Positions 21,716 to 24,073 of a stretch of 55,175 nucleotides of DNA are shown here, piece by piece. Position 1 is the first letter of the stretch. Each line of letters starts with the position of its first letter. The notes below the pieces were generated by a model, which made no database searches, had not been told where the DNA came from, and was given only the letters and a program-made list of their open reading frames with translations. The stretch is from Thermodesulfovibrionales bacterium (lineage in GTDB: Bacteria > Nitrospirota > Thermodesulfovibrionia > Thermodesulfovibrionales > SM23-35). Location: assembly GCA_030019415.1 (NCBI GenBank), contig JASEEX010000010.1, forward strand, positions 1 through 55,175. The letters are read 5' to 3'. A program made the translations under genes and the position numbers.

Positions 21716-21811
21716 ATTCAATCTCCTTGATAATTTTAACATTAGTTCAGGTATCCATGATGTAGATCGATATGTCTGTTGGTTAACTCAAACGAAGAGA
21801 GAAACAGAATC

Positions 21812-21820: not shown

Positions 21821-21877
21821 AGCGAAGATATAAATACAATCTAAGAGAGAGGCAAGAACTGTATGGGAGGTAATTTC

Positions 21878-22093
21878 ATGGGAAAAAGGGTTATTATCTA
21901 CGGCAAGGCTGGCTGACCCTTTACCGAAAAGGCCAGGTTAGCCTATGGAGATAGTGCTGAATATTTCGATGTTAAATCAGACAGCACAAGATTACAGGAG
22001 ATGCTCAGATACTCAGGTGGTGTCCAAAGGGTACCGGTTATCGTTGAGGGTGATAAGGTAACTGTCGGTTACGGGGGCTATTGAGGTATTTGA
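21878..22093 (+). CDS. Glutaredoxin-like selenoprotein with two in-frame UGA codons (Uxx-star type)
   Basis: A gene that ordinary ORF calling misses. From ATG 21878, 7 bases after GGGAGG, the frame reads MGKRVIIYGKAG-U-PFTEKA with UGA at 21914-21916 exactly where glutaredoxins have the first Cys of CPYC, then EYFDVKSD, GGVQRVPVIVEGDKVTVGYG (the cis-Pro VPVIV region and glycine-rich end of the thioredoxin fold), and ends GGY-U-GI-stop with a second UGA at 22082-22084. Total 71 codons. The C-terminal U-x-x-stop matches the known Uxx-star (seleno)protein families. Each UGA is followed 16-17 bases later by a hairpin with loop CAGGTTA or CAGTTTA. This is a predicted small redox selenoprotein. The neighbour is a corrinoid activator. 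SelA/B/C are not in the window. Confidence 0.82.
21930..21944 (+). promoter_or_regulatory. SECIS-like hairpin after first UGA
   Basis: AGGC (21930-21933), loop CAGGTTA (21934-21940), GCCT (21941-21944), with possible outer pairs CC (21924-25)/GG (21947-48). The loop begins 17 bases after the UGA and contains GGU, as in the E. coli fdhF SelB site. Confidence 0.65.
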
Positions 22094-22096
22094 TTA

Positions 22097-22111
22097 CCGG
22101 CAGTTTACCGG
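22097..22111 (+). promoter_or_regulatory. SECIS-like hairpin after second UGA
   Basis: CCGG (22097-22100), loop CAGTTTA (22101-22107), CCGG (22108-22111). The loop begins 16 bases after the UGA and differs from the first loop by one base. It lies past the final stop codon. Confidence 0.6.
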
Positions 22112-22204
22112 CATCTTTAATTCCCTTTAAACCCCAATTTAATTTTTGGTTCTTCTCCCAATTAGTTGCTAAACATGGGTCAAGAGGTCCAGGATTCGAG
22201 GATT

Positions 22205-24073
22205 ATGGATATTAAATTAACCACGGGGAGAACCCTCCACATCTTAGAAGAGGAAAGCCTGCTACAGGCATTGAAAAGGCATGGCATATACCTTGTTGCC
22301 TCATGCGGAGGGAAGGGAATATGCAGTAAATGTCGTGTCAGACTCCTCGAAGGAAAGAGCAAGATTGCCTCCACGGGCAAACTCGAACCACGTGAGATAA
22401 AGACGGGGATTACCCTTGCATGCCAGACCTTTCCAGAAGAGGACATCTTCATTGATATACCGAAGGAATCAAAACTTGTTGTAGGAGAGAAGATAGCGAT
22501 ATCAAAATCTACAGACCTAATTGAACTACTTCACTCTTTAGAGGCTGAGATATCTCCAATTGTGAAGCGAATTACATTGAATCTGCCCCCGCCTACCATC
22601 CATGACAATATAAGTGACCTTGAAAGGCTTAAAAGGTCGCTGGAAGAAAGGGATTTAATAGGGATAAGATTTTCCCATGGGTTAGTCTCATCCATCTCAA
22701 AGGTACTCAGAGAGGCAGAGTGGAAGATAACTCTAAGATACACCGATAGCCATGATGCCATCTCCATTTCACCTGCTGGTATGGACGGGGACAGGTATGG
22801 ACTTGCAGTGGACATAGGGACAACCACTGTGGTTATATATCTTGTAAATCTTACAGATGGACGGCTCATTGATGTGGGCTCCACCTATAATTCCCAGATG
22901 AGATACGGAGACGATGTTATTACGCGCATAATCTATGCTACAGAGAGTGGAGGACTTGATGAGCTCAGAGACTCTGTGGTTTCCGACATAAATGATCTAT
23001 TAGCCCCATTAATAGAAAGACATAGCATAAGCAGGAAGGACATCGAATCAGTTGTTATAACAGGCAACACCACTATGACCCATATATTCTGGGGGCTTAA
23101 CCCTGCCCATATCAGGGAGGAACCTTATATTCCAACAATAAACTTTTTCCCAAGATGGAATGCAGGGACCGCTAAGCTTAAGATCAATCCCCTGTCCCCA
23201 ATATATACGGTCCCCTGCGTTGCAAGCTATGTTGGTGGTGACATTGCTGCTGGTGTGCTTTCATCGAAGCTGCATAGAAGCCCGGAGATAGCCCTTTTCA
23301 TAGATATAGGTACAAATGGAGAGATTGTCATAGGAAACAATGAGTGGCTCATGGCTGCTGCTTGCTCCGCAGGCCCCTGCTTTGAAGGAAGCGGGATAAA
23401 ACATGGGATGAGGGCGACTGAAGGGGCGATAGAATCCATTAAGATAGACCCTGAGACATTTGAGCCTGTATTTAATGTTATCGGAAATGGACAACCCATG
23501 GGCATATGTGGCTCAGGTATGATAGACGCCATCTCAGAGATGTTCCTGACAGGGATAATAGACCAGAAAGGCAAGTTTATCAGAGAGGTCAAGACTGGTA
23601 GAATAAGGAATGGTGTAGATGGTCCTGAGTTTTTGATTTTCAGCAGAGATGGAAGGGATATTGTCCTTACAGAGGTTGATATCGAGAACATTCTGAGGGC
23701 AAAGGCTGCGATATATGCTGGTGTGTCCCTGCTTTTAAAGGAGGTTGGTTTTGGCCTGGATGCGATAGAAAGGGTTTATATCGCGGGGGGATTCGGTAAT
23801 TATCTCAACGTTGACAGAGCCATCATCTTAGGGATGTTACCTGATCTTCCGAAGGATAAGTTCTCTTTCCTTGGGAATGCCTCAATTACAGGGGCATACT
23901 TATGTCTTCTTTCTAAGGAACTCAGGAAAGAAGCTGGTATTATCGCTTCAAAGATGACATATCTCGAACTCTCAGTCTCAAAAAGGTTCATGGATGAGTA
24001 TATATCTGCCCTCTTTTTGCCCCATACCCATATGAGGCTCTTCCCAACAGTAAAAAAATTGCTATCAAAATAA
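22205..24073 (+). CDS. Reductive activator of corrinoid enzymes (RACE: 2Fe-2S + ASKHA)
   Basis: 622-residue protein with an N-terminal plant-type [2Fe-2S] ferredoxin domain (C-x5-C-x2-C in CGGKGICSKC, final Cys in ACQTF; residues about 36-80), a linker domain, and a C-terminal ASKHA ATPase (DUF4445) with AVDIGTTTVVIYLVNL, VVITGNTTMTHIFWG, FIDIGTNGEIVIGN, GICGSGMIDAI and YIAGGFGNYL. Such proteins use ATP to reduce inactive Co(II)-corrinoid proteins of methyltransferase systems (RamA-like in function, ASKHA type in fold). Start at ATG 22205; upstream TTG/ATG codons lack ribosome sites. No corrinoid protein or methyltransferase lies in the window, so the partner is elsewhere. Confidence 0.9.
   Translation: MDIKLTTGRTLHILEEESLLQALKRHGIYLVASCGGKGICSKCRVRLLEGKSKIASTGKLEPREIKTGITLACQTFPEEDIFIDIPKESKLVVGEKIAISKSTDLIELLHSLEAEISPIVKRITLNLPPPTIHDNISDLERLKRSLEERDLIGIRFSHGLVSSISKVLREAEWKITLRYTDSHDAISISPAGMDGDRYGLAVDIGTTTVVIYLVNLTDGRLIDVGSTYNSQMRYGDDVITRIIYATESGGLDELRDSVVSDINDLLAPLIERHSISRKDIESVVITGNTTMTHIFWGLNPAHIREEPYIPTINFFPRWNAGTAKLKINPLSPIYTVPCVASYVGGDIAAGVLSSKLHRSPEIALFIDIGTNGEIVIGNNEWLMAAACSAGPCFEGSGIKHGMRATEGAIESIKIDPETFEPVFNVIGNGQPMGICGSGMIDAISEMFLTGIIDQKGKFIREVKTGRIRNGVDGPEFLIFSRDGRDIVLTEVDIENILRAKAAIYAGVSLLLKEVGFGLDAIERVYIAGGFGNYLNVDRAIILGMLPDLPKDKFSFLGNASITGAYLCLLSKELRKEAGIIASKMTYLELSVSKRFMDEYISALFLPHTHMRLFPTVKKLLSK

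Follow-up and report, generated by a model that had tools for sequence, protein, structure and literature searches.

A gene for a small glutaredoxin-like protein, in which two in-frame UGA codons very probably encode selenocysteine (Sec), was found in the window, that is, the whole stretch of 55,175 nucleotides analysed here (contig JASEEX010000010.1 of a Thermodesulfovibrionales bacterium). The gene (21878..22093, + strand; 71 amino acids plus a UGA stop) was assigned to UXX-star selenoprotein family 1 by sequence reading and by its match to the NCBIfam model NF041114, and we hold with high confidence that it belongs to this glutaredoxin-like family with both UGA 13 and UGA 69 read as Sec. 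The double-Sec layout is already known, because a 2026 review (PMC13188914) lists NF041114, there called 'distant Grx-like protein 1', as a family that has two Sec residues and the motif UxxT, and attributes this to earlier work; the window gene is a new member of a catalogued family. The first-pass annotation, which had proposed a small glutaredoxin-like selenoprotein of the Uxx-star kind in which two codons specify Sec, was borne out by the family score, the Sec machinery of the genome and the conservation of both SECIS hairpins.

Gene structure and family assignment

The ATG start codon lies at 21878 and is preceded by the ribosome site that had been claimed for it, a Shine-Dalgarno-like GGGAGG (21865..21870, + strand, read directly from the sequence) located 7 nt 5' of the start. 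Two in-frame UGA codons on the + strand were assigned to Sec from the reading frame and from the codons of the homologues. The first, TGA at 21914..21916, is codon 13 and stands in the context G-U-P-F-T at the position of the glutaredoxin Cys, while the second, at 22082..22084, is codon 69 and specifies the third residue from the C-terminus; both were placed where the first-pass annotation had put them, the second being two codons ahead of the final stop. The 3' end of the gene reads UGA GGU AUU UGA (22082-22093), i.e. U-G-I-stop, and this U-x-x-stop arrangement is the source of the family name. The product has 71 residues provided the first two UGAs are read through. In the gap of 423 bases between the genes at 21742 and 22166 no ORF of at least 80 aa was listed, in keeping with the earlier statement that normal ORF calling misses this gene; it had been overlooked by the standard procedure.

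The terminal UGA (22091..22093, + strand) was also considered as a third Sec codon and was ruled out. It is an ordinary stop, because it lies only about 9 nt from the loop of the second SECIS hairpin, outside the 16-37 nt range, and because TAA or TAG occupies this place in about 50 homologous loci, which is most of the homologues.

With UGA read as Sec, the window protein scored 101.7 bits against NF041114 (cut-off 72; profile positions 1-70 of 70), 75.8 bits against the umbrella model NF041212 (cut-off 66) and 29.5 bits against the Pfam family PF00462 (Glutaredoxin; cut-off 22.9). The UXX-star family is reportedly named in Haft and Gwadz 2023 and in Haft and Tolstoy 2025. Scores for the other UXX-star models NF041211, NF047338 and NF045501 were 39.6, 38.3 and 46.5 bits against cut-offs of 100, 97 and 325, and membership of UXX-star families 2 and 3 or of the HUGP/GUXX-star fusion was excluded by these sub-cut-off values. 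The curated glutaredoxin models were not reached either (GRX_bact, 23.5 versus 90 bits; GlrX_YruB, 24.7 versus 88.55 bits). NF041114 had one matching place in the source genome.

Selenocysteine machinery of the source genome

The first-pass annotation had proposed a search for selA, selB, selC and selD. In the source genome (1.94 Mb, 166 contigs, estimated complete) selA, selB, selD and tRNA-Sec were all present, with matches over the cut-off of 620 bits for SelA, 373 for SelB, 381 for SelD and 75 for tRNA-Sec. The SelD of this genome (L016, G000:C111) itself contains Sec at an in-frame UGA. A Sec-containing FdhA fragment (L117, G000:C166), cut by the contig end, was also seen; its UGA is in frame and its SECIS is paired throughout. 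As to the location of tRNA-Sec in other genomes, its distance from the UXX gene was about 5.5 kb in L024 and L026, which belong to one genus, and in L068 it lay about 700 nt 5' of that gene; these cases are too few, and linkage of selC to the UXX gene is not claimed.

SECIS hairpins across the family

A bacterial SECIS is modelled as a hairpin with G and then G/U early in a loop of 3-9 nt, located 16-37 nt from the UGA (PMC13188914). When a simple stem score of at least 13 was taken as presence, a hairpin after U69 was detected in 89% of the loci; the figure was 10% for dinucleotide shuffles and 8% for 642 ends of ordinary ORFs. In most loci the loop of this hairpin begins 17-20 nt 3' of the UGA, beyond the stop codon and in a region free of protein constraint. 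All seven pairs of the stem showed double changes, and the covariation of 0.577 exceeded that of the shuffles (0.242) and of any slid pairing (0.207 at most). The U13 hairpin lies within the coding sequence, where 94.1% of the cells were paired. Its innermost pair, over 54 rows, was C-G in 38, U-A in 13 and A-U in 2, mostly through an exchange of GCC...TCG for GCT...TCA; this is a switch at third codon positions, for which protein constraint gives no explanation.

Judged from these alignments, each of the two UGAs has 3' of it a hairpin in agreement with the bacterial SECIS model, with compensatory changes across homologues. The preservation of the second hairpin by such changes 3' of the stop codon argues strongly for decoding of the C-terminal UGA. 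A chance open frame without a product, in which UGA13 and UGA69 are ordinary stops, would have in its favour nothing beyond the presence of three UGA codons; it is refuted by the family score, by conservation across phyla and by SECIS covariation 3' of the stop codon, and its probability is negligible.

SECIS elements of the window copy

Family alignment and folding placed the hairpin for Sec13 inside the coding region at 21930..21944 (+ strand; AGGC-CAGGUUA-GCCU) and that for Sec69 3' of the stop at 22095..22113 (+ strand; UACCGGCA-GUU-UACCGGCA). In both, the second pair from the loop is a C-A mismatch, unique among the 54 and 47 aligned members, respectively, and in the second hairpin one lower pair is also mismatched, giving it two mismatches in all. 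The 46 nt after U69 folded with -6.5 kcal/mol (z -0.36), so that the window U69 element falls short of the bSECIS threshold of -7.5 kcal/mol quoted in PMC13188914. Position and loop of the window elements agree with the bSECIS description while the stems are weak; across the family the hairpins agree with it and show covariation.

These mismatches may reflect decay, a tolerated A-C wobble or an assembly error. If the window copy were decaying, its weak SECIS elements would let translation stop mostly at codon 13, and the unique mismatches in both stems point that way, the more so since the SECIS elements of SelD and FdhA in the same genome are fully paired; for the same reason a genome-specific SECIS type with a C-A mismatch was not supported. 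On the other hand, the protein sequence is intact and well above the family cut-off, each hairpin still has four base pairs in its stem and, at about 18-19 nt, GG/GU in its loop; A-C wobble pairs could be acceptable, and base errors are possible in a metagenome-assembled genome (MAG). We consider decay improbable and retain the reading of both window UGAs as Sec.

Codon states at sites 13 and 69

The genome collection contributed 43 loci to the homologue set, and among the relatives 30 of 101 genomes scored over the family cut-off. The two-UGA layout was present in dozens of genomes from several phyla, with a spacing of 55-60 codons between the two UGAs in almost every row. Codons were counted over 72 usable loci, a few of which are the same contig present in two collections. 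Codon 69 was TGA in 71 of the 72 and TGG in one (L035), whereas codon 13 was TGA in 64, Cys in six (L027, L050 and L061-L064), TAA in one (L068) and uncovered in one. A wider search of the phylum added two further Cys13/Sec69 members (L094, L097), and the Cys13 cases scanned score over a UXX-star cut-off; most of the weaker matches examined in that search lacked the C-terminal tail and were glutaredoxin-like proteins of the ordinary kind. No Cys69 member was seen in the 72 loci or in the wider phylum search. UGA-Cys exchange, which the first-pass annotation had suggested looking for at both sites, was hence found at site 13 and did not turn up at site 69. A tree of 74 rows, in which many forks are unresolved for so short a protein, requires five changes to account for the Cys13 state, and well-supported branches make at least three of these unavoidable.

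The codon data show that Sec and Cys were exchanged several times at site 13, with no exchange seen at site 69, and because of this difference the C-terminal Sec, rather than the glutaredoxin-type Sec, is the near-invariant feature of the family. The earlier picture of a catalytic N-terminal Sec with an accessory C-terminal one fits this conservation poorly. The contrast between the two sites was not found stated in the literature searched, the founding papers being outside its scope, and novelty is not claimed for it.

Two loci depart from the usual pattern in other ways. L068 (G064:C63, around 1489-1734) has UAA instead of UGA as its codon 13, with the body and the second SECIS intact, and its genome carries a second, divergent UXX-star copy (L113). 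L035 (5-214) is the sole member with TGG at codon 69, i.e. Trp for Sec, with an intact downstream SECIS hairpin; this is possibly a recent mutation or a base error.

Gene neighbourhood

A gene for a RACo/AcsV-type corrinoid activation protein (22166..24073, + strand; profile matches) lies on the same strand, 72 bases downstream of the UXX gene, and the first-pass annotation had linked the two. That link did not hold up. AcsV-type genes occurred in 100 of 101 relatives, with or without UXX, compared with UXX family 1 over the cut-off in 30, and the two were near each other only in the window, in L060 (about 0.4 kb upstream) and in G033 (1.4 kb downstream). In the other genomes the two genes were either on separate contigs or at least tens of kilobases from each other; the flanks of many loci were only 1.5 kb long, and whole-genome positions of AcsV and UXX cover those genomes. 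A service to the adjoining corrinoid/Wood-Ljungdahl system, by delivery of electrons to AcsV or its protection, would have the proximity in these three places in its favour and is weakened by the separate positions elsewhere. We regard such a service as very unlikely, and the adjacency in the window, which is not conserved, as most likely incidental.

The 52 immediate neighbours on the same strand matched 55 Pfam families, each in two members at most, and no conserved operon partner was found among them. The main neighbour clusters were lineage-bound and the immediate neighbours highly varied, which supports a stand-alone general function. In seven genomes of the window's family (L069, L072, L073, L076, L080, L083, L091) the UXX-star gene is preceded, at a distance of 2-51 nt, by a gene for a NagA-like deacetylase (resembling N-acetylglucosamine-6-phosphate deacetylase; named by eye), which is absent upstream in the window. 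A variant subgroup (L041, L046, L048, L050, L051) carries a UPFC/CPFC motif and a 13-residue insertion before a C-terminal GGTU, and, as an exception to the variety of neighbourhoods, its neighbours include ACR3 arsenite efflux, an ArsE-like thioredoxin and a permease distantly like SaoE.

Fold and possible function

The AlphaFold2 model was a confident glutaredoxin fold (mean pLDDT 89.9, pTM 0.76) that ends just after the last strand, and the nearest solved structures were glutaredoxins, including C. oremlandii cGrx1. The glutaredoxin active-site motif and the Val-Pro of the cis-Pro loop (VP at 52-53) are retained, and Thr occupies the usual place of the resolving Cys (position 16). In glutaredoxins the glycine turn after the last beta strand adjoins the active site. 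Sec69 is kept in members that have Cys16 (L041, L050, L051, L062), with a CxxC/UxxC motif noted in L050, L051 and L062, and for this reason it may be more than a replacement resolving residue.

In the mechanism that we propose, Sec would be inserted at codon 13 under the hairpin inside the coding region and at codon 69 under the second hairpin beyond the stop, and translation would end at the third UGA. The product of the window copy would then be a UXX-star family 1 selenoprotein of 71 residues with a truncated glutaredoxin fold, in which Sec13 occupies the position of the attacking Cys of glutaredoxin. From its place at the glycine turn that follows the last beta strand, Sec69 could act either as the residue that resolves the Sec13 intermediate or as the principal reactive selenol. 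A general role as a cytoplasmic selenol/thiol oxidoreductase seems fairly likely, and a two-Sec relay with a Sec13-Sec69 bond is plausible. Because Sec/Cys exchange is repeated at 13 and never seen at 69 in our data, the C-terminal Sec might even be the essential reactive residue of a C-terminal-selenol enzyme that uses the glutaredoxin fold as a scaffold and in which site 13 is the partner, which we put forward tentatively from the sequences.

The selenols might instead serve as ligands, the main role being that of a metal, metalloid or organometal ligand or carrier. UXX-star Sec residues may bind metals or substrates not yet known, according to PMC13188914, and the variant subgroup adjoins arsenic genes, but in the typical members, that of the window included, the conserved neighbourhoods contain neither metal nor arsenic genes, and the glutaredoxin Val-Pro strand and active-site motif are kept. 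We consider a ligand role rather unlikely and favour an oxidoreductase.

UXX-star family 1 comprises catalogued small two-Sec glutaredoxin-like proteins, and no biochemistry for it was found in the literature searched. The stronger retention of the C-terminal Sec than of the active-site Sec opens the way to a direct test of function by Cys swaps at 13 and 69.

Comparison with known systems

The closest system is NF041114 itself, with which the window protein shares a score above the cut-off over the full model, the motif U-P-[FYH]-T, the C-terminal U-G-[VIL]-stop and two Sec residues. It differs in having Tyr before Sec69, where the family usually has Thr, Ser or Ala, and in the C-A mismatch of both SECIS stems, which is absent in the other aligned members. 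With UXX-star families 2 and 3 and the HUGP/GUXX-star fusion it has the fold and the idea of a C-terminal Sec-x-x-stop in common. Clostridium oremlandii cGrx1 (PDB 7c10) shares the glutaredoxin fold, and its native form carries Sec at the N-terminal position of the active site (Kim et al., 2011, cited in PMC13188914). However, it is only about 23-25% identical to the window protein, has a second active-site Cys and further C-terminal residues, and lacks a C-terminal Sec. E. coli glutaredoxin 3 resembles the window protein in fold and active-site position, but has a CPYC motif, a longer C-terminus and no Sec; its third Cys presumably lies at a GG-C-DD turn, near the place of Sec69.
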